Below are positions 25,680-37,726 of a DNA stretch of 64,000 nucleotides, piece by piece. Each line of letters begins with the position of its first letter. The stretch's first letter is position 1. The position numbers and the translations under genes were made by a program. Under the pieces are notes generated by a model. The model was given only the letters and a program-made list of their open reading frames with translations. It was not told where the DNA came from and searched no databases. Source of the DNA: Rhizobium sp. CCGE 510 (GTDB taxonomy: Bacteria; Pseudomonadota; Alphaproteobacteria; Rhizobiales; Rhizobiaceae); assembly GCF_000292525.1 (NCBI RefSeq), contig NZ_AEYF01000013.1, positions 1 to 64,000 on the forward strand. The letters run 5' to 3'.

Positions 25680-27008
25680 GTGCTTGAGGGCTGGGGAAGA
25701 ACGGGGAAATCCGTCTCGTTGATCGCGATGTTGCTGGCGTTCGTCGCCATGGCCGGAGAGGGGCATGCGGCAATTTCCTACCAACGTCTGGACGGCGCCC
25801 CGGGAGAGCGTGGCCTGGTGATAAAGGGCGTGTTTGAATTCTCCGACGATCCGACGCAGCTTGTCGACGAATACAAGCAGTCCCAAGCGGACTACATCAG
25901 CTTTGACTCGCCCGGCGGAAACGTGGTCAGTGCGATCAGCTTCGGCCGCGCCATCCGCGCGCTGAATGCAAGAACACTCCAGATCAGAGCCCTGGAATGT
26001 GCATCGGCCTGCGCCTTCGCCTTCGTCGGTGGCGTCGAAAGGTTTGCCGAGCCGGGCTCCATCGGCGTGCATCGGATTTCCCTTTCCGACGATATCCCCA
26101 TGGACAACAAATTGGCAGTCTCGACCGTTCAATTGATGACCGGCGAGATCATCGGCTATCTCAACGACATGGGGGTCAGCCCCAATCTGCTTCAGCTCAG
26201 CCTGTCGATCGACAGCACCGATATAAGGTATCTCACTGCTGCGGAAATGCGGAACTGGAACATCAACACGCCCGAGGATATGCCTGCGCCGCAGGAAAGC
26301 GCGCCGCCGCCTGCCGCCGCGCCTGAGGTGAGCGCAACACCCGCCGATATGCCGTCTGACCCCAGCGCTTCCGAGGAGGCGGCCGCATCCGCACCCGGCG
26401 ACCTGACCACGGAAGCTGTTGATTTCGTCAACCGGTACAATGACGAATGGTCAAAAGACAACGCCTCGGCGCTTGATTTCATGAAGAGCATCTATGCCGA
26501 CCAGGTCTCCTTCTTCGGAACCTCGGTCGACAAAGACGTCGTGCTAAAGGACAAGGCGACCTTCGCCCAACGCTGGCCGCAGCGCATCTACAGCGTCAAG
26601 CCCGGCTCCGTGACTGCGAGCTGTGCCGGAAAATGCGAAATGTCGGGAATCGTTGAGTGGTTTGCCGGAAACAGGGACACGGGTAAGACTTCCTCCGGCA
26701 TGGCGGAATTCTCCTTCGTGTGGAACACGGCCTCTCTGCAGATCGAGTCCGAGACTGGAAAGGTACTCGCCACGGACAAGGGGACCAAGGCGCCGGATCG
26801 GTTGATCCATCAGTGGACAGGACTGGACGACATCTGCCGCACGAGTGTCGATCGCGAGGGCGCCGAGACGCTACGGGCATGCAAACGGCGCGACGAGCTC
26901 GGTCCGCTGCTCAATCGTGTCGACTGGTGCTACGGCCATAACGATGAACCCGAGAGCGATAAAATGTGGCACAAATGCGATGCCAATTCCTATAGGTATG
27001 GCGAGTAA
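25680..27008 (+). CDS. Exported protein with ClpP/crotonase-like domain (COG3904-like)
   Basis: About 442 aa. A GTG at 25680 is preferred because AGGAGAGG ends 5 bp upstream; ATG 25650 in the same frame has no ribosome site. A signal peptide covers about residues 7-32 (…VAMAGEGHA). The ClpP-like segment runs YISFDSPGGNVVSAISFGRA … ALECASACAFAFVGG, where the Ser-Ala position matches the nucleophile area of SppA/ClpP folds. A Pro/Ala linker (about 205-240) leads to a NTF2/SnoaL-like C-terminal domain and a Cys-containing tail. Peptidase activity is not proven by motif. Confidence 0.65.
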   Translation: MLEGWGRTGKSVSLIAMLLAFVAMAGEGHAAISYQRLDGAPGERGLVIKGVFEFSDDPTQLVDEYKQSQADYISFDSPGGNVVSAISFGRAIRALNARTLQIRALECASACAFAFVGGVERFAEPGSIGVHRISLSDDIPMDNKLAVSTVQLMTGEIIGYLNDMGVSPNLLQLSLSIDSTDIRYLTAAEMRNWNINTPEDMPAPQESAPPPAAAPEVSATPADMPSDPSASEEAAASAPGDLTTEAVDFVNRYNDEWSKDNASALDFMKSIYADQVSFFGTSVDKDVVLKDKATFAQRWPQRIYSVKPGSVTASCAGKCEMSGIVEWFAGNRDTGKTSSGMAEFSFVWNTASLQIESETGKVLATDKGTKAPDRLIHQWTGLDDICRTSVDREGAETLRACKRRDELGPLLNRVDWCYGHNDEPESDKMWHKCDANSYRYGE

Positions 27009-27058
27009 GGATCGCCGGTCCGCGGCGAGGTGTGGTAGTTTGTCCAAAGGGAGGGCGA

Positions 27059-27080
27059 GGTGGTCATTGCGATGACCACC
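27059..27080. terminator. Hairpin after the ClpP-like gene
   Basis: A perfect 9-bp stem, GGTGGTCAT (27059-27067) with ATGACCACC (27072-27080), and a TGCG loop lie 50 bp after the stop, between convergent genes. No T run follows. Confidence 0.4.
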
Positions 27081-27098
27081 GTCAAGCGATGACGGCGC

Positions 27099-27436
27099 CT
27101 AGCAGCCATCAAGCGCCTTTATCCTCGAGACCAGGGTCTTGCCAAACACGTAGGTGGTCTGGACATCGGCGCGACCCTGGCAGCGACGTCCATCATTGGT
27201 GACGTATTCGTACGAAACCCTGACATCATCATTGCCGCGCAGCGCGTGCCTGTGAGTTTGAGCGGCTGCGACATCGCGCCGAAGTAGGCGTGGATCGACG
27301 CTTCGTTGAGGGGCCTTGGCCGCGCTTCTCCGGAACGACCAAACGCTGAGGCGGTTTCACCATCGGCTGCAGCGAGCGCGGAGTAGAAGGCCGTCACCAC
27401 CGTGCCCATAGGATCGTGCGGAAACGTCTTGCTCAC
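27099..27436 (-). pseudogene. Frame-disrupted remnant of a small exported-protein family gene
   Basis: Coding-like sequence is split over several minus-strand frames. One frame gives VVTAFYSALAAADGETASAF and LNEASIHAYFGAMSQPLKL. A second gives LVVPEKRGQGP between them. A third gives RGNDDVRVSYEYVTNDGRRC and ends KTLVSRIKALDGC with a TAG at 27099-27101. Joined, they form a plausible protein with the VVPEKRG…YY/FYG…ALDGC layout I associate with small rhizobial proteins. At least three indels are needed. It borders the three-gene island at 27641. A sequencing error cannot be excluded. Confidence 0.5.
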
Positions 27437-27640
27437 CTCGGACGCCGGGTCAGGTCCGTCCTCGTCAATCGCGTCGTAAGTGATCCCACGGTTTGCGCCT
27501 TGGCGTGTCTTGGAAAAGCAAGATTTGCAGGTTGAGTAAGAAAAGTACGATCGTGAGATCTCGACAACTTACGCGGGATGACCAATGCTTCAAAACTGGG
27601 AGATTCGACCAGTCTTGGTCGACTGGGTTCGGGAGCATTA

Positions 27641-30076
27641 ATGGAAATCACGCATTTTTCGCCACGCGATCTGCTGGGCGCCGCGAAGTGGAGCTCACTT
27701 CTCTTCACAACCTACTCGCTCAGCCTGTCTTTTCTGGAAGCTGTTCCGCTTTCGTCGGTCAACCGCAGCTTTAAAGACTTTACGGTACTGACCGATCTCG
27801 AAGGCTATCTCTCGTCCCTCAGCGACGTAGGCGCAATTGGCGTTGGCCGGGACTACGACCTCGTTCCGATCAAGGTCGATGGTGGCGTCTTTCATCCAAA
27901 AATCTCCCTGCTTGCGGATGACAGCGGAAACATTCGCGCCACGGTCGGCTCGGGCAATCTTTCGTTCGGTGGATGGGGTTACAACCACGAGGTGCTGGAG
28001 ATTCTTCGTCCAGGTAAGGATTCGCGCTGCTTTGCCGATCTAGCCGAAATGCTAGAGGCGATGGCTGCTGCTTCAATCCCGGGACGTCGCTTCGAGTGTC
28101 TGAGGCCTCCAAGCCTCAATCAATTTATCGACATAGCACGGCGTGCGTCCATTCAGACAGGAGAAGGCAGAAGCCGTTTGCTCCATACGATGAAGGGCTC
28201 GCTCATTCCTCAATTCCGCGAGATGGCAGACGAGCTCGGAGGCGCGCGCGCCCTCACGATTGTTTCACCCTTCTTCACCCAGCACGCTGGCGTGGAAGCG
28301 TTGGCTTCAGGCCTTGAGTGTGCCGACGTGTCGGTAATGGTACCGCTAAGGGCCCCGTCAATGTTCGAATTCAAGGAGGCCACGATGGCCGGTTTTCCTT
28401 GCAAGCGGGTCACCAGCGAGCTTTTCGAAGATCGGCGCTCGCTCCACTCGAAGCTCTTCGATATCCAGTGCGAGAAAGGTCGGCTTGTGGTGACTGGTAG
28501 CGCGAACGCTACGGTGCCCGCACTGCTCGGTCGCAACATTGAAGCCGTCGTCGTCCGTCCAACCGACCGTTCAACTTCATTGGGCTGGCGCCCGACGACC
28601 CGGAGCGACAGCATTTCAACGGAGGAAAGAGAGCCTAAGCCATCGAGCGGGGCGGGGCTGATTGTCGACTACAAGGGCGGCGCCGTCGTCGGCCGGGTGA
28701 TGGGCCTCGACGCGACCGGCGACTGGGATGCTTTTCTTTCCTCTGGAACTCGGCGACAGCAAGTCGGCGCCGTGTCGATCGACGGGAGCGGCAAATTTAG
28801 GTTCGCTCCTCCGTCGAACATGGATCCACTTACCCTTGCTACATCGGTTCAGGTGATCCTCATAAGGGGTGATATCGAACTTAGGGGCTGGCTAATCCTG
28901 CGGGATCTTATTGGAGCGATTTCACGGAGAGGTCCAATCGCGCGCGTCATTAACCGCATAATCAGTGGACTGGACACCCTCGCCGACGTCGGCGCAATCC
29001 TCGACTTTTTCGCCCGCGATCCCCAACTCCTGTTCGACGCGTCCGCCCGCTCGGGAGGTGGCAAGTCCGACCGCAAGGATGCCATATCGTTCTTCGGCCA
29101 AAATCTGTCAGCTTTGCGCGGCACCAGCGCGTTTGACATGGATGGGACAGGGACGGGACTGGAAGCCGCTCACTCCGGCGATGCTTTAATCGAGGCCCTT
29201 GTTCGCCACCTCGCGAATGCGATGCCGCAATCGCACGACGATGCTGCAGACTATCCCGACGAGGATAGCGAACCGCGTGTGGGAGAGGACGTGGTGCGGA
29301 AGCCTTCCATAAAAAACAAGCGGAGCAATCAGCATCTTCAATGGCCAATCGTCGAGAAGGCGTTCGAGCAACTCTTCGCCAAGCTCGAAGAGCACCCTGC
29401 AGGCTCACAGAGGGCGGCGGGCCTTTTCGTCTTGTTCGACATGATGATCCAAATCGTCCCTCGTACCGAAGCGCCGGACGAGCTCCTCCACTTTTTGATG
29501 CGCCGTTGGCACCGAGCGGCGGTCGGGGCCAGACCCACAGACACGGATCCGACGTCCCTCGATCAATGCTTCTCAATCATTGCTACACGGATGGTCATAT
29601 CGGATGGGATGTTGGCACCGAGGATGCACGCCGCCCTGCAGACTTGGATCGGAGGGGAGTTGGACGAGGATTTCAAGAACCTCTTCGAGCCAACCGCTAG
29701 CGGTACCGAAGAGCGTCGGATCTATCCCGAAGGACAGGACGCCGAATGGAAACAGGCATGGGCGCGGCTAGTCGGGTCAAAGACACAATGGAGCGCGATG
29801 AAGGAGCTTAAAGCGGCTCTGGCGGTGGGTACGCAGGTTGTCACCATACCGGAAGGCGCCAGCCCCCAAGAGCGCAGCACCATCGAGAAGGTGGTCCAGG
29901 GTAAGTCCAAGCCCAGCCGCATCGCCTACCTTACGTCTCGGCGATCAGACAAAGTCGCGTGCCCAGCTTGCAACATGGGTCTGGCGCTCGAGCAGCGAGG
30001 CAGGCTCGCGGCCAAGCGTATTGCGTCATGCACCTACATGCGGTGCGGCTGCGTCGTCATCGACATCTCACTTTAA
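27641..30076 (+). CDS. Phospholipase-D-type nuclease with zinc ribbon (island gene 1)
   Basis: An 811-aa protein. ATG 27641 is chosen because GGGAG lies 5 bp upstream. Two HKD-type half sites are visible. The first is FHPKISLL (H85, K87) with GSGNLSFGG (N106) and NHEV. The second is LHSKLFDIQ (H269, K271) with GSANATVPAL (N289) and NIEAVV. This is the paired active site of PLD-family nucleases. The long middle (about 310-760) is unassigned. The C-terminus carries CPACNMG … CTYMRCGC, a zinc-ribbon pattern for nucleic-acid contact. It is 10 bp from the next gene and forms a unit with it and the KAP NTPase. DNA or RNA cleavage is inferred from the fold. Confidence 0.75.
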   Translation: MEITHFSPRDLLGAAKWSSLLFTTYSLSLSFLEAVPLSSVNRSFKDFTVLTDLEGYLSSLSDVGAIGVGRDYDLVPIKVDGGVFHPKISLLADDSGNIRATVGSGNLSFGGWGYNHEVLEILRPGKDSRCFADLAEMLEAMAAASIPGRRFECLRPPSLNQFIDIARRASIQTGEGRSRLLHTMKGSLIPQFREMADELGGARALTIVSPFFTQHAGVEALASGLECADVSVMVPLRAPSMFEFKEATMAGFPCKRVTSELFEDRRSLHSKLFDIQCEKGRLVVTGSANATVPALLGRNIEAVVVRPTDRSTSLGWRPTTRSDSISTEEREPKPSSGAGLIVDYKGGAVVGRVMGLDATGDWDAFLSSGTRRQQVGAVSIDGSGKFRFAPPSNMDPLTLATSVQVILIRGDIELRGWLILRDLIGAISRRGPIARVINRIISGLDTLADVGAILDFFARDPQLLFDASARSGGGKSDRKDAISFFGQNLSALRGTSAFDMDGTGTGLEAAHSGDALIEALVRHLANAMPQSHDDAADYPDEDSEPRVGEDVVRKPSIKNKRSNQHLQWPIVEKAFEQLFAKLEEHPAGSQRAAGLFVLFDMMIQIVPRTEAPDELLHFLMRRWHRAAVGARPTDTDPTSLDQCFSIIATRMVISDGMLAPRMHAALQTWIGGELDEDFKNLFEPTASGTEERRIYPEGQDAEWKQAWARLVGSKTQWSAMKELKAALAVGTQVVTIPEGASPQERSTIEKVVQGKSKPSRIAYLTSRRSDKVACPACNMGLALEQRGRLAAKRIASCTYMRCGCVVIDISL

Positions 30077-30086
30077 GGTATCGACC

Positions 30087-31682
30087 ATGCGACTCGACGA
30101 AATCGACAGATCATTGGACGACGCTCCGGGTTTCAGGGTGGTCGGCGAACTCACGCTCACGGAGAGCGGCGTCGATCCGATTGGGCTAAGACAGCTCAAT
30201 CTTGATCTTATGGACGCCACGGTCCCAGGCATCAACAATGTTACTCGGTATATCCGGCCGTACACCTTCATGGCTTGGGCGTGGTGGCGAGCCGCGCGAT
30301 ACGCCCAACGCAAGGGCATGACGCCTGAAACGATGCACGACCTCGTCGCGAGATATGAGGCGATGTACGCGTGGTCACACTCCATGGTCGGTAGTCCATT
30401 CCGTGGCGAGGTCACAGTAAGAAGATACCTCAACGCCGAACCAGGGACCGACACATTTACCTTCTCCGGACCGAACTGGGAGCGCTACAAGAAAGAGCGG
30501 ACCAGCTTCATGGCGCCTACCGAGTATGGGCCTTCGATAAAGGCGCTGCGGTTTTTGAAGCCGGAAGATGGGATGTTCGGTTGGGCCGAGGAGGCGCTTC
30601 CCGCCCTCGAAGCGATCGACGCCATTATATCCGCCAGTTTGCCGGCGCGGTTCTTTGAGCTGGATCCTCCGACCATTCGTGTCAAGGAGTTGGAAATGTT
30701 CGCCGAGGTACTGCACGTCGATGATCCGACGGATGCCGAAGTCGAAGTGTTTCGTCAACTCTTCTACGAAGTCGGCAGCTCTAACCGGGCTTGGAAAGAA
30801 GTCCGCCGGCGCAAGGCGACGATCGATCTGCTGCGCTCGATCCTTGTTGACGAAGGCCCGCTCGATATCGATGGCCTGCGTCGCGCCCTGTCAAAAAACG
30901 GCGCCATCGTATCGAACGAGGGCGATCTTGCGGAAATGCGCAAATCGGCAACCATGCTTTGCCATTTGCAGGTTCGCCAGCTTCAGCGACTTGCCACCGA
31001 AACCCTGATGCTGTGGGTTGAGGTGTTCCTTAGCGAGACCTCAAACCGTTCACGCAGCATTGACGATATAACGGACCATGCGCATCAGATGTCCCGGCTG
31101 CAGGACGCCGACTATGCGAACAGCGGATCCGTCGGAGAGTACATGGAACGGATACGCGCTGCAGCGAAAGACAAAGGCTGGCCTGCCGGCGCTGCTCTTC
31201 CACACACAGGTGTCGTGGAAATGATGCATGCTCTTCAGCACGCCCAGTACTCGGAGCGGCCTCGTATTCCAGCACTAGTGGCAAGGTCTGTAGCTATTGT
31301 CCGGGCAGTGACAAAGGAATTCGAGGGTAGGGATCTTCCCGAGGGCGTCCTGAACGCGATCGAGGGACGTCCGGACAGAATGCCGATGGGTCTGATGACA
31401 CGCCGGATTGATGCGCTTTCAGAGAGACCACTCTCCGCTTTGTGGAGAGAGGTCGTGGAGCGCTGGGTTATAGGCCAACATGTCCACTGGTCCGCCGTAC
31501 GAGGTGGTGACGGAAAGAAGCGCTTGAGGATCGGCCTCGAGGGTGACGGCTGGATGCTTGTGCGCAAGCAGCCTAGCGGCGGCTTCGCACCGACGCCGGA
31601 CAGGCTTTGGACGCTTCTCGCGCTTGGAACCGCATGCGGTATTTTTACGACGTCCGACGAATGGGAGTTCGACGTCGCGTAA
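30087..31682 (+). CDS. Protein of unknown function, DUF6361-like (island gene 2)
   Basis: A 531-aa protein from ATG 30087 (AAGG upstream); the much longer open frame runs back inside gene 1 and is rejected. The N-terminus reads MRLDEIDRSLDDAPGFRVVG, then GVDPIGLRQLNLDLMDATVP and RYIRPYTFMAWAWWRAARYA. The order 'small target motif, then a tract about a low-complexity-free, Trp-rich helix' recalls DUF6361-type proteins that I have seen listed beside PLD proteins and helicases in defence loci. That resemblance is from memory and weak. No catalytic motif, signal peptide or membrane segment is evident. The rest is mostly predicted helix, ending in a Trp-containing domain (WVIGQHVHWSAVRGGDGKKR). 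Confidence 0.5.
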   Translation: MRLDEIDRSLDDAPGFRVVGELTLTESGVDPIGLRQLNLDLMDATVPGINNVTRYIRPYTFMAWAWWRAARYAQRKGMTPETMHDLVARYEAMYAWSHSMVGSPFRGEVTVRRYLNAEPGTDTFTFSGPNWERYKKERTSFMAPTEYGPSIKALRFLKPEDGMFGWAEEALPALEAIDAIISASLPARFFELDPPTIRVKELEMFAEVLHVDDPTDAEVEVFRQLFYEVGSSNRAWKEVRRRKATIDLLRSILVDEGPLDIDGLRRALSKNGAIVSNEGDLAEMRKSATMLCHLQVRQLQRLATETLMLWVEVFLSETSNRSRSIDDITDHAHQMSRLQDADYANSGSVGEYMERIRAAAKDKGWPAGAALPHTGVVEMMHALQHAQYSERPRIPALVARSVAIVRAVTKEFEGRDLPEGVLNAIEGRPDRMPMGLMTRRIDALSERPLSALWREVVERWVIGQHVHWSAVRGGDGKKRLRIGLEGDGWMLVRKQPSGGFAPTPDRLWTLLALGTACGIFTTSDEWEFDVA

Positions 31683-31709
31683 TTGAGGACGGTATCTAAC
31701 GGAGAATAC

Positions 31710-33653
31710 ATGCGAAATTGGTTCAAACGGGGCGAGGAGACGAAAATTGCAGCACCGGAGCACAAAGAGCCCGAGGACGTGACAAGCCTCGCTGTCGAAC
31801 CGGTGACTCATCTTGACCAGTATCTTGCCTACTACATAGGAAGAAGGAAGCCCGGATACGCAGTTCTCGTCACCGGCGACTGGGGCAGCGGCAAAACCTT
31901 CCAGGTTCGGAACGCGTTGCCTGACACGCACTCCTATTACGTCAGCTTGTTCGGCCTCAATACGCCCGAAGATGTTGAGGCCCAGGTATTTACAAAGATG
32001 TTCCCTTGGGCTTCCGCGGTCAAACGGGTAGCCGACAAGGTAGATGGCACGTCCGTCAACATACCGGTTTGGGGCGCCATCGGCACTGGAGGCCTGGCCG
32101 GTTGGATCGCAGGATCCTTGATAAGGAACCAGGTGGATCTCTCCCGACCTCTGATCTTCGACGATCTTGAGAGATGCACTGTTGCCAACGACATCTTGCT
32201 GGGCCTCATCAACCGATACGTGGAGCACCATGGATGCAGGGTGATCGTCATCGCCCACGACACGAAGGTCGTGAAGTCGTTCGCGGAAAACAAGGAGAAG
32301 GTTTTCGGCCAAACAATCAATATCGTGCCGAACGTCGAAGCTGCGTTTCAAGCGTTCGTCACGTTTTTCGAGAGGCCCGGCGTCGCTGATCGTCTAGGTG
32401 AGAAGAGACGGGAGGTATTATCCATGTTCCGAGAATCCGGCGCGGCCTCGCTTCGTGTTCTAAGGCACGTGGTCGAGGACGTCGGTCGTCTGGTAAATGC
32501 TCTCGAGGATCGTCACCTCGCGAATGACATGGCCGTCATTGAGCTGATACGAATGTTTTCAGCGCTGGCCATTGAGACACGGTCCAACAGACTGGAGCGC
32601 GCGGACCTGCTCAAGCGTGGCGAAAAGATCTTCGGTTTTCGGATGGATCGGGGCCGCAACCGCGCCGACCCGCCAGAACCTCCGGCGTTCGTTGCCGCGG
32701 CGCAGAAATATTCGTCCGTCGACATCTCCAGCACGCTGCTAGGGGACGAAGTGCTGATCGAAATGCTGTTCGATGGACGTTTTGATCAGGGGCACATCCG
32801 AGACAGCCTGAACCGAAGCGCCTACTTTCTGGAGAAGGAGGCAGCTCCGCCCTGGCAGGTCGTGGGGAGCTTCGACAAATTGGACGACCAAGACGTCGAC
32901 CAGGCGCTACAGCGAATGAACGAGCAATTTGAAAAGCGCGAAGCGTCTTCGTCTGGCGAGATCCTGCATATCGTTTCGTTGAAGATGATGATGGCTTCAA
33001 GCGGCGCTTCAAAGAGTACGCTGCGACAGGTAGCGGACGCCTCAAAAACCTATATCGACGACTTGCTTAAGGCAGGGAAACTGCCTCCTAGACCGGCAGG
33101 TTGGATGTGGACTGACGATTTTGCATCGTCGCACGGTGGAGTTGGATATTGGGTCGCCGATTCGTACAAGGCGGAGTTCAAAGAGGTTTTCGATCATCTT
33201 GTAGTTTCACGGATCAAGGCGAGGGATAAAATGCTGCCGGGAGAGGCACCCGCACTTCTGGAGGTGCTGAAGTCAAACGGCCAGAAGTTTTTCGAGAAGG
33301 TCTGTCATACGCACAATGGCGTGATGGAGTATGAGGACATACCGATCCTCGCGCACATCGAACCATCCGACTTCGTGGACGCATGGCTCCTTTCGCCGAA
33401 AACGGGTTGGTACTGGATTGGAAATGCACTCAAGCAGCGTCGAAACGCAGCACCCCAATATCCGGCGCTCGCCGCAGAGATCGCCTGGTATCCGAAGGTT
33501 CATCGCGAAATGCTGAACCGCGGGAAGTCGGAAAGCGGTCTCACGCGCGTCCGGATCGAACGTGCAGCGGATCTCATAGGGCTCCCAAGATCGACGCCCC
33601 GCACCTCCGGGCCCAGGCCCGCCGCGACGCCTCGAACGCCCGCTGCATCCTAA
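31710..33653 (+). CDS. KAP-family P-loop NTPase (island gene 3)
   Basis: A 647-aa NTPase. ATG 31710 follows ACGGAGAATAC. Walker A is VTGDWGSGKTFQ (56-63), Walker B is PLIFDDLERC (about 147-156), and VIVIAHDTKVVKS looks like the sensor strand. Between Walker A and B lies a hydrophobic insert, IPVWGAIGTGGLAGWIAGSL (about 118-137). An inserted membrane segment at this place is the hallmark of KAP NTPases, which occur in phage-exclusion and defence loci (PifA being the classical case). The C-terminal 350 residues are helical and unassigned. It should act at the membrane as sensor or switch for the nuclease; this is inference. Confidence 0.75.
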   Translation: MRNWFKRGEETKIAAPEHKEPEDVTSLAVEPVTHLDQYLAYYIGRRKPGYAVLVTGDWGSGKTFQVRNALPDTHSYYVSLFGLNTPEDVEAQVFTKMFPWASAVKRVADKVDGTSVNIPVWGAIGTGGLAGWIAGSLIRNQVDLSRPLIFDDLERCTVANDILLGLINRYVEHHGCRVIVIAHDTKVVKSFAENKEKVFGQTINIVPNVEAAFQAFVTFFERPGVADRLGEKRREVLSMFRESGAASLRVLRHVVEDVGRLVNALEDRHLANDMAVIELIRMFSALAIETRSNRLERADLLKRGEKIFGFRMDRGRNRADPPEPPAFVAAAQKYSSVDISSTLLGDEVLIEMLFDGRFDQGHIRDSLNRSAYFLEKEAAPPWQVVGSFDKLDDQDVDQALQRMNEQFEKREASSSGEILHIVSLKMMMASSGASKSTLRQVADASKTYIDDLLKAGKLPPRPAGWMWTDDFASSHGGVGYWVADSYKAEFKEVFDHLVVSRIKARDKMLPGEAPALLEVLKSNGQKFFEKVCHTHNGVMEYEDIPILAHIEPSDFVDAWLLSPKTGWYWIGNALKQRRNAAPQYPALAAEIAWYPKVHREMLNRGKSESGLTRVRIERAADLIGLPRSTPRTSGPRPAATPRTPAAS

Positions 33654-33807
33654 GCCTATCCAAGCGACCGGTCTCTTCTGATAGTCGCTGCAATCGTGGC
33701 GCGTCCGTGAACGTCTCCAATGGCAAATGTTTTCGTCCGCTTCGCCGAATATTACGCGCGGCTCGAACGTGAGTAATTATCTCCGTGCGCTTTTCAATTA
33801 ATGTTTT

Positions 33808-33839
33808 ATCTCGTCCGAATTTGCTCATTCGGACGAGAT
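33808..33839. repeat. Perfect 13-bp inverted repeat at the island's right edge
   Basis: ATCTCGTCCGAAT (33808-33820) and ATTCGGACGAGAT (33827-33839) are exact complements around a 6-nt loop. It lies between the convergent KAP gene and nrdJ. Without a T run after the stem on either strand it may be a weak bidirectional terminator or a boundary mark of the island. Confidence 0.5.
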
Positions 33840-33910
33840 CATTACTGCATCACTTTAGTGGCCGTGCGACAAAATAACTGACTGCCTATAGAAGAGTAGG
33901 GAGAGCCTAC

Positions 33911-36900
33911 TCAGCTGCACCCGCTGGTCGCCCCACACGTGTCGCACTTCTCGCAAGTCCCATTCCGCACCATCGTGAAGTTCTGGCACTCCGAGCACAT
34001 GTTGCCGGTATAGCCCTGCATGATCGAGCGTTGGCGGCGTTCGGCTTCCCGCTTCTTGGCTTCGGATTTCGCCGTCGCCGCGTCCGCTGCTGCCTTGTCG
34101 GAGAAGAGTGCGGTGGCGTCGCTGGTGATTTCCTCGGTTACCTCTTCGGCAATCTCTTCGGCCAATTCCTTGGCGCGCTCCTCGTAATCGCGCTTGAAGG
34201 CGACGATTTCGGAGGTGGAGATGGCAACCGTCGGTTCCAGCTTGCGAGCAGCGCTGCCGGCAAAGACGGTGACGGTGCCGGTCGAAGTGGCGCGGGCAGG
34301 GGCGGCGGTTGCCGCACCCTTAGGTTCGCCCGCCTGGCGTTCGCCGCCGGTGCCGGAAACCAGCGTCGGCTTGTAGCCGCGGGTCCAGCCGGTGGAGAGC
34401 AGGTTGGTCTTGCCTTCCTGGATGCCCTTGCCGAGCGCGGTGTTGGAGAAATCCGACGTATCGACATGCGCCAGGTCATGGCGGCCGAGATAGGAGACGG
34501 CAAGCTCGCGGAAGACATAGTCGAGGATCGAGGTGGCGTTCTTGATCGCATCATTGCCGATGACCATGCCGGCCGGCTCGAACTTGGTGAAGGTGAAGGC
34601 CTCGACATATTCCTCGAGCGGCACGCCGTATTGCAGGCCGAGCGAGATGGCGATGGCGAAATTGTTCATCATCGCGCGGAAGGCAGCGCCTTCCTTGTGC
34701 ATGTCGATGAAGATCTCGCCGATGCGGCCATCGCCGAATTCGCCGGTCCGGAGATAGACCTTGTGTCCGCCGACGGCAGCCTTCTGGGTATAGCCCTGGC
34801 GGCGGTTCGGCAGTTTTTCGCGTTCGCGGGAAACACGCTCGACCACTCGCTCGATGATCTTCTCGGTGATGGTGACGGCCTGGGCGGCGACAGGCGCCTG
34901 CAGCAGTTCCTCCAGCGCATCCTCATCGTCCTCGTCTTCGATCAGCGAGGCATTAAGCGGCTGCGACAGCTTCGAGCCGTCGCGATAGAGTGCATTGGCC
35001 TTAAGGCCGAGCTTCCAAGACAAGAGGTAGGCGTTCTTACAATCCTCGACGGTTGCGTCGTTCGGCATGTTGATGGTCTTGGAAATCGCGCCCGAGATGA
35101 AGGGCTGGGCGGCCGCCATCATGCGGATATGGCTTTCCACCGAGAGGTAGCGCTTGCCGATCTTGCCGCATGGATTGGCGCAATCGAACACCGGCAGGTG
35201 TTCGGCCTTCAGGAAGGGTGCGCCTTCCAGCGTCATCGCGCCGCAGACATGGATGTTGGCGGCTTCGATGTCCTTCCTGGAGAAACCGATATGGTCGAGC
35301 AGGCTGAAGCTCATGTCGGCGAGCTGCTCGTCGGAAACCTTCAGCGTCTCCTTCAGGAAGTCGGCGCCGAGCGTCCACTGGTTGAAGACGAACTTGATGT
35401 CGAAGGCGCTCTTCAGCGCGGCGTTGACGGCTTCCACCTTCTCGTCGGTGAAGCCCTTGGTCTTCAGCGTCGACGGGTTGATCGCCGGCGCCTGGTTCAG
35501 GTTGCCGTGGCCGACGGCATAGGCCTCGATCTCGGCAATCTGGCTTTCGGAATAGCCGAGCGTGCGCAGTGCGTCGGGCACGGCGCGGTTGATGATCTTG
35601 AAGTAACCGCCGCCGGCGAGCTTCTTGAACTTGACGAGGGCGAAGTCAGGCTCGATGCCGGTGGTGTCGCAATCCATGACGAGGCCGATCGTGCCTGTCG
35701 GCGCGATGACGGAGACCTGGGCATTGCGGTAGCCATGCTGTTCGCCGAGCGCGAGCGCCTTGTCCCAGGCCGATTTGGCATGGGCGACGAGATCCTGGTC
35801 CGGGTTTTCCGAATGGATCAGCGCGACCGGGTCGATCGACAGGGCCTCATAGCCGGAGGTTTCGCCATAAGCGGCGCGGCGATGGTTGCGGATGACCCGC
35901 AGCATGCTCTCGCGGTTCGGCGCGAAGTTCGGGAAGGCCCCGAGTTCGCCCGCCATTTCGGCCGAGGTCGCATAGCAGACGCCGGTCATGATCGCGGTCA
36001 ACGAACCGGCAATGGCGCGGGCTTCGATGGAGTCGTAGGGAATGCCGGAAGACATCAGCAGGCCGCCGATATTGGCATAGCCGAGGCCGAGCGTGCGGTA
36101 TTCATAGGAGAGTTCGGCAATGCGCTTCGACGGGAACTGCGCCATCATCACCGAGACTTCGAGCACGACGGTCCACAGGCGAACGGCGTGTTCGTAATCG
36201 GCAATGTTGATGCGCTTGGTGGCCTTGTCCTTGAACTGCAGGAGGTTCAGCGAGGCAAGGTTGCAGGCCGTGTCGTCGAGGAACATGTATTCCGAGCACG
36301 GGTTCGAGCCGCGGATCGGGCCGCCGGCGGGCGACGTGTGCCAGTCGTTCATCGTCGTGTTGAAGTGGATGCCCGGATCGGCCGAAGCCCAGGCGGCGTA
36401 GGAAATGGTTTCCCAGAGATCGCGCGCCTTCAGCGTCTTCATCACCCGGCCGTCCTTGCGGGCGGTCAGGTTCCATTCGCCGTCATTTTCGACGGCGCGC
36501 AGGAAGTCGTCCTTGATCGAGACCGAGTTGTTGGAGTTCTGGCCGGAGACCGTGAGATAGGCTTCCGAATCCCAATCCGTGTCGTAGGTCTTGAATTCGA
36601 GATCCTTGTAGCCCTGGCGGGCGAACTGGATGACGCGCTGGACGTAATTCTCGGGAACCTGGTCCTTCTTGGCAGCGCGGATTTCGCGCTTCAGGGCAGG
36701 GTTCTTGGTGGGGTCGTAGCAATCGCCATCGTCGCCGCCTTCGCAATTGAAGCAGGCCTTCATGATCGCCTTCAGGTGCCTGGCGACGATCTTCGAGCCG
36801 GTGACGAGGGCCGCGACCTTCTGCTCTTCCTTGACCTTCCAGTTGATGTATTCCTCGATATCGGGATGGTCGATATCGACGACCACCATCTTCGCCGCAC

Positions 36901-37726
36901 GGCGCGTCGTGCCGCCCGATTTGATGGCGCCCGCTGCACGGTCGCCGATCTTCAGGAAGCTCATCAGGCCGGAGGAGCGGCCGCCGCCGGAAAGCTTTTC
37001 GCCTTCGCCGCGCAGCATCGAGAAGTTGGAGCCGGTGCCGGAGCCGTATTTGAACAGGCGCGCTTCACGCACCCAAAGGTCCATGATGCCGCCTTCGTTG
37101 ACGAGATCGTCCTCGACCGACTGGATGAAGCAGGCATGCGGCTGCGGGTGTTCGTAGGCCGACTTGGACTTGGTCAGCTTGCCGGTGAAGGGGTCGACAT
37201 AGAAATGGCCCTGGCCGGGGCCATCGATGCCATAGGCCCAGTGCAGGCCGGTGTTGAACCATTGCGGCGAGTTCGGGGCAACGCGCTGGGTGGCGAGCAT
37301 ATAGGCAAGCTCATCCTTGAAGGCCGAAGCATCTTCCTCGGAGGAGAAATAGCCGCCCTTCCAGCCCCAATAGGTCCAGGTGCCGGCAAGACGGTCGAAC
37401 ACCTGGCGCGCATCGATTTCGGAGCCGGTCTGCTCGTCCTTGGACAGGGTCTTCAGCGCCGCATCGTCGGGAACGGAGCGCCACAGGAAGGAAGGAACGT
37501 CGTTTTCCTCGACCTTCTTCAGCCGGGTGGGGACGCCGGCCTTGCGGAAATACTTCTGCGCCAGAACATCGGTCGCGACCTGGGAGAACTGCGCGGGAAC
37601 GTCGATATTCTCGAGGCGGAACACGATCGAACCATCGGGGTTCTTGATCTCGCTCGTCGCCTTGCGGAATTCGATATCCGCATAGGCGCCTTGTCCGGGC
37701 TTCGTGAAACGACGTTCGATGCGCAT
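33911..37726 (-). CDS. nrdJ: Adenosylcobalamin-dependent ribonucleoside-diphosphate reductase (class II)
   Basis: A 1271-aa reductase making deoxyribonucleotides with coenzyme B12, oxygen-independently. [20 protein letters not shown] carries the class I/II active-site block (N-x-C-x-E), and [20 protein letters not shown] is the family phosphate/substrate loop. [13 protein letters not shown]-type and [20 protein letters not shown] regions supply redox cysteines. The C-terminus ends [20 protein letters not shown], a Cys-rich tail that shuttles electrons or binds zinc. Length matches rhizobial NrdJ. Two NrdR-like boxes lie upstream. No cobalamin riboswitch was found in the leader. Confidence 0.95.

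Follow-up and report, generated by a model that had tools for sequence, protein, structure and literature searches.

A conserved gene pair for a TDP1-like phospholipase D protein and a ZacA-like partner, a candidate defence module beside a KAP NTPase gene in Rhizobium sp. CCGE 510

Helicases are found in many nuclease-based defence systems, and the list in PMC12278908 names over a dozen. Azaca, attributed to Millman et al. 2022 in passages of PMC10952713 and PMC12278908, is composed of ZacA, ZacB and ZacC, and the same passages name its phospholipase D (PLD) domain and the helicase ZacC. According to a passage of PMC4081073, BfiI, of the PLD superfamily, is metal-independent and works through a covalent intermediate. 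A PLD-superfamily protein is also part of DISARM. PADLOC further holds candidate systems (PDCs), most of them unvalidated according to an excerpt of PMC12988326. The locus studied here lies in the window, a stretch of 64,000 nucleotides of Rhizobium sp. CCGE 510 (contig NZ_AEYF01000013.1), and its features are collected in Table 1.

Table 1. Positions of the accessory segment, the three ORFs and their motifs in the window
Feature	Position	Strand	Basis or remark
Accessory segment, about 6.3 kb	27506..33828	.	no nucleotide match among gap stretches from 14 congeners
PLD/TDP1-like nuclease-type protein, 811 aa	27641..30076	+	ORF, Pfam and predicted fold
Catalytic motif 1 of the PLD protein, H85-x-K87...N106...E117, without D	27893..27991	+	conservation
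Catalytic motif 2 of the PLD protein, H269-x-K271...N289...E301, without D here	28445..28543	+	conservation
C-terminal Cys cluster of the PLD protein, zinc-ribbon-like: C774, C777, C797, C802, C804	29960..30052	+	alignment
ZacA-like partner (middle) protein, 531 aa	30087..31682	+	ORF; AF2 model mainly of helices, mean pLDDT 90.4
N-terminal stretch (residues 28-64) in which the partner is best conserved	30168..30278	+	in relatives, ZacA is matched by the equivalent region
KAP-family P-loop NTPase, 647 aa, PDC-S49 homologue	31710..33653	+	outside the conserved pair
Walker A of the KAP protein, GDWGSGKT, residue 56	31875..31898	+	
Walker B of the KAP protein, LIFDD, residue 148	32151..32165	+	

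The ORF coordinates bore out an earlier note on this DNA in that three genes follow one another on the same strand, with 10 bp between the PLD and partner genes and 27 bp between the partner and KAP genes. The PLD ORF is also open from the ATG at 27578, and the start at 27641 was favoured by the family alignment and a preceding GGGAG. For the KAP gene, the TTG at 31683 is a possible alternative to 31710. The Pfam search assigned the first protein to PF13091 (PLDc_2; E 8.3e-7, two stretches) and the third to PF07693 (KAP_NTPase; E 8.1e-8, 32.3 bits against a cut-off of 20). The best PADLOC matches were ZacB for the PLD protein (E 6e-17, residues 96-336) and the candidate PDC-S49 for the KAP protein (E 3.7e-132).

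The H, K, N and E of both PLD motifs were invariant in 40 of 40 listed sequences. The D position of HxKxxxxD is occupied by A92 in motif 1 and by Q276 in motif 2, and a D was found there in 0/40 listed sequences for motif 1 and 4/40 for motif 2. An H-x-K...N arrangement without D resembles TDP1, which is not known to carry the HKD-type D either. In the Cys cluster, conservation among the listed PLD relatives was 40/40 for C774, 33/40 for C777, 20/40 for C797 and 38/40 for C802, and C804 was not conserved among these 40. The protein had been described as a PLD with two HKD motifs and a zinc ribbon; the PLD domain and the Cys cluster stood, and the HKD designation fell with the absence of the motif D. 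In the predicted structure (pLDDT 85.6), residues 1-328 form a TDP1-like double-PLD fold. The VIA-align match to TDP1 had Z 23.7 over 298 residues at 3.5 A, the next PLD enzyme following at Z 19.5, and Foldseek gave a TDP1-like match at 4.7e-9. This likeness is at the level of the fold, and the enzyme may act on a phosphodiester of another kind.

The PLD protein shares the H-x-K residues and the superfamily with BfiI and NgoFVII, and its match to RE_NgoFVII was weak and below the cut-off (E 0.0018). In BfiI and NgoFVII one site is shared by a homodimer, whereas the window PLD carries two motifs in one chain and has a separate partner protein. A further difference is that no methyltransferase gene lies in the window segment. 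The likeness to DISARM consists of the PLD-superfamily protein, with a weak DrmC match (E 0.0017), and of a related pair (L098, sister clade) standing beside a class 1 DISARM-like operon. However, the segment 27506-33828 holds only three ORFs and none for DrmA, DrmB, DrmD or a methylase.

The PLD protein and its partner are a tight conserved pair. Relatives of the partner were drawn from plasmids, genomes of the order and a scan of species genomes (at least 49 loci), and the neighbourhood analysis with iterated profiles covered 63 listed loci, including the window. The PLD gene stood directly upstream of the partner gene, on the same strand, in 54 of the 59 listed loci with a strong partner ORF; this count keeps the near-duplicates L004, L025 and L026 as well as L066 and L067, scores L059 as paired despite its short PLD ORF, and leaves the remnant-only loci L010, L011, L014 and L070 outside. 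The exceptions were L003 with the reverse order, L030 and L054 at contig ends, L013 with a truncated partner and no PLD, and L004 with the PLD ORF in three pieces. The listed pair loci belonged to Alpha- and Deltaproteobacteria, Acidobacteria and Verrucomicrobia. The distance between the two genes ranged from -460 to +10 with the longest ORFs used, and in some annotated loci they overlap by 4 bp. Among recurrent neighbours of the listed loci, the partner was present in 60 and the PLD in 56, and the next cluster occurred in 8, all sphingomonad. PLD and partner distances were correlated with r 0.97 over 40 listed loci, a value reached in 0 of 2000 permutations, and shared ancestry alone can give such a correlation.

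The distribution of the pair within the order was patchy. A PLD match was found in 6 of 394 genomes, and the partner adjoined it in five, namely the window's own, G256, G376, G302 and G340; in G111 the PLD match had no partner. The partner was detected in 3/397 genomes, and two more were found by profile, adjoining PLD matches. In a sister clade, the partner preceded the PLD in 8/8 opened plasmid loci, taken from 18 plasmid records with partners, and these loci came from Alpha- and Betaproteobacteria, Bacteroidota and Streptomyces. One ORF of G376 (L099:7630-9210) was tried as a family member and dropped from the alignment as unrelated. Relatives of the partner occur on plasmids. On Agrobacterium and Rhizobium plasmids, some copies of the pair (L010, L011, L014, L013 and L004) were decayed or split, which is a sign of turnover.

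Among described systems, Azaca was the nearest. The PLD protein had ZacB as its top PADLOC match, and partner proteins matched no PADLOC model except ZacA at E<=0.01. Moreover, the two genes are adjacent, as in Azaca. Zac is presumably the gene prefix for Azaca, and the passage of PMC12278908 agrees with this. The ZacA model did not match the window partner itself. It matched, at E<=0.01, 6 of the 42 listed members of the window clade (best 1.7e-4) and, in the sister clade, 6 of 9 (best 3.2e-5). In profile comparison, the two partner clades aligned over 475 columns (E 1.5e-32) and the two PLD families over 297 columns (E 3.6e-42). A ZacA search over 150 genomes of the phylum gave no match, and its controls likewise gave none. 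The best relatives of the pair appear to be ZacB and, through the partner family with modest E-values, ZacA.

The partner model was confident (Table 1). The window partner had no Pfam or PADLOC match and one NCBIfam row far below the cut-off (E 0.024), and Foldseek of its model against solved structures gave nothing at E<=0.001. The description of a middle protein without known motif accordingly held for the protein itself, and through its family it is probably a distant relative of ZacA. The best VIA-align score was Z 6.0, mostly with transporters. A yeast RNA polymerase III subunit (winged helices) was rejected as a relative because a match of 56 residues at Z 5.8 was too weak. HTH_45 (Pfam) was found in one of nine sister-clade proteins, which gives no more than a hint of a winged helix in the partner. 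DUF6361, which may have a similar motif, was considered as an identity of the partner and dropped: PF19888 matched in 0/150 genomes of the phylum, where no control matched either, no DUF6361 match was given by Pfam in the nine sister-clade proteins at E<=0.01, and no paper naming DUF6361 was found in the literature search. Viral contigs gave no match with a single-protein query or with an alignment query, and no match was found in phage records.

The pair differs from Azaca in the helicase. No helicase ORF lies in the window segment, and since ZacC is missing there, the pair is called Azaca-like and not Azaca. Elsewhere in the window genome, one weak ZacC match was found on contig 44 (E 6e-4). 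With eight helicase queries, a same-strand helicase within 500 bp of the pair was present in 3 of the 59 listed loci (L036, L038 and L048). Near the pairs of L023, L036 and L038, the ZacC model matched DrmD-like helicase genes (the three E-values being 2.9e-11, 4.2e-8 and 4.3e-7) that follow the pair at a distance of 1.3-5.4 kb and in the same orientation. In L036:10755-15902 and L038:10757-15943, the pair was followed on the same strand by an L006-like helicase of about 1720 aa and the DrmD-like gene, a possible larger assembly. This long helicase is presumably of the DUF1998 type. The sister-clade pairs of L158 and L161 adjoined a helicase-type gene on their own strand, and the pair of L098 was followed by a DrmD gene; the helicase-type genes by L161, L158 and L098 were of restriction-modification (R-M), Zorya or DISARM type. 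As helicases stand near some pairs, a helicase may be supplied in trans or by a neighbouring system.

An Azaca-like locus with its own helicase was found in G376. In L185, a partner matching ZacA (5.5e-7), a PLD and an 809-aa helicase matching ZacC (2.8e-18) stand in a row. The order is thus partner, PLD, helicase, whereas the window clade has PLD and then partner. The L098 pair, ahead of the DISARM-like operon, is on the same contig as L185. The region of about 70-120 kb on contig 15 of G376 (L098, L099 and L185) is a dense defence island: besides the class 1 DISARM-like operon, which the partner-PLD pair immediately precedes, it holds the Azaca-like locus and a gene for a Mokosh-like helicase.

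The third protein matched PDC-S49 with residues 42-629 over model positions 7-605 of 624. Its setting differs, for here the KAP gene stands behind another module. A membrane segment between Walker A and Walker B is typical of many KAP proteins. In this protein, the interval had a peak mean Kyte-Doolittle value of 1.3 over 19 residues, and the weak hydrophobic stretch was not conserved among 12 relatives. A membrane segment is therefore not established: of the P-loop NTPase with an inserted segment that had been proposed, the NTPase with its Walker A and B was confirmed, and the segment was weak and unconserved. The literature search found no paper naming PDC-S49 and none joining KAP NTPase, phospholipase D and anti-phage.

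The KAP gene did not travel with the pair. With the single sequence and with a wider KAP profile, a KAP relative was found at 0 of the 62 other listed pair loci, in flanks of up to 9 kb that were far shorter at L002, L003, L054 and contig ends. Counting the window's genome, 14/394 genomes of the order had a KAP relative, and the locus of one of the 14 (L094) contained only a short piece. Around the remaining 13 KAP loci, neither PLD nor partner was found in retrieved flanks of up to 9 kb, and no KAP neighbour was common to more than 3 of the 14. The trio as a conserved unit, as the earlier note had it, was rejected on these counts within the flanks searched. Its further proposal, that the KAP protein senses invasion at the membrane and licenses the nuclease, found nothing in support. 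The KAP protein is probably an independent defence candidate and only a neighbour of the pair. The 27-bp spacing may still permit co-transcription and local cooperation.

The genomic setting was examined by blastn of window positions 26900-34100 against 16 gap stretches (L141-L156) of 14 congeners. Matches of the left flank ended at or before 27505, and those of the right flank began no earlier than 33891 except in one congener, where the start was 33829. The gene nrdJ (33911-37726) was present in 60/60 genus genomes searched, including the window's. In 11 genomes, again with the window's, one contig carried both flanks, 1.6 kb to 87.5 kb apart; the left-flank match had to extend at least to query position 2122, which in G535 it did through a 58-base piece. 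This variable site, on the upstream side of nrdJ, corresponds to window 27009-33910 and L141-L156. A conserved protein of 422-426 aa is encoded in the gap of several congeners (L147:535-1812; homologues in L141, L144, L145, L146, L148 and L153). It is 86-93% identical to the L141 copy, was not seen in the window, and no solved relative of it was found.

The gap-stretch ORFs of congeners (82 of 88 listed) matched 70 PADLOC families at E<=1e-10, including Hhe-like and PDC-S37-like genes and type II methyltransferases. Neighbours of the pair elsewhere (88 ORFs, 50 listed loci; 11 loci skipped by name, and none contributed by L030 and L054) matched 208 families, and 38 window genes used as a control matched one; these tallies count models and not genes, the ORF sets are neither equal in size nor of one origin, and the control comes from a single genome. 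The proposal of a defence locus was thus upheld in part. The matches of the PLD and KAP proteins to defence models, the variable nrdJ site and the defence-type neighbours agree with it, and the trio as its unit does not. The earlier note knew of no described system with exactly this set of genes; the KAP protein is already covered by the PADLOC candidate PDC-S49, and the pair resembles Azaca.

We consider it probable that the locus is a two-gene module for DNA defence, Azaca-like but lacking its own helicase gene, followed by an independent PDC-S49-type KAP gene. The pair would most likely be a DNA-targeting nuclease licensed by the ZacA-like partner. The PLD protein would act as a metal-independent phosphodiesterase, presumably on DNA. 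Its two H-x-K...N...E motifs would come together as a single active site in a pseudo-dimer of the TDP1 type, cleavage would pass through a covalent phosphohistidine intermediate, and the C-terminal zinc ribbon may help to hold the DNA. The ZacA-like partner would bind the nuclease together with foreign or damaged DNA, and might hold the nuclease inactive as long as no target is engaged. The KAP NTPase would act separately. An anti-phage or anti-plasmid effect of the pair is plausible from these comparisons. More tentatively, and with rather more doubt than confidence, the pair may be an undescribed two-gene immune system of several phyla, in which a TDP1-like PLD nuclease and a partner recognising target DNA work without their own helicase or ATPase. 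PADLOC coverage of such a system would be poor because most partner proteins match no PADLOC model.

Other explanations were compared with this Azaca-like module. The three genes might form one system in this genome, with the KAP protein powering or licensing the PLD/ZacA-like complex in the place of ZacC. The common strand, the gaps of 10 and 27 bp and the single accessory segment fit this, as does the helicase ZacC as third component of Azaca in the passage of PMC12278908. We regard it as unlikely, since KAP was found at 0/62 listed pair loci and the pair at 0/13 KAP loci within the searched flanks, and the KAP protein has no conserved neighbour and matches PDC-S49.

The pair might also be an operon for DNA repair or adduct removal and not for defence, composed of a TDP1-like phosphodiesterase and a DNA-binding partner. 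The closest solved fold is indeed a tyrosyl-DNA phosphodiesterase (Z 23.7 vs 19.5), and H-x-K...N without D is a feature resembling TDP1. However, the patchy distribution (partner in 3/397 genomes of the order), the plasmid-borne relatives, the variable site and the sister-clade pairs beside R-M, Zorya and DISARM genes make repair quite improbable. An equally improbable account is a toxin-antitoxin-like logic on mobile elements, in which the partner would serve chiefly to hold a toxic PLD nuclease in check, competitors being excluded as a by-product. Adjacent genes with a 4-bp overlap in some loci, plasmid-borne relatives and decayed copies would suit it, but the proteins are large, and usual toxin-antitoxin pairs are unlike proteins of about 800 and 500 aa.

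For the family, the result provides new partner profiles, where PADLOC finds 6/42 listed members at E<=0.01. The KAP gene 27 bp away is no proof of a three-gene system. An Azaca-related nuclease pair without a helicase of its own raises the question of what the ZacA-like protein senses, and this sensing could be addressed with two genes.
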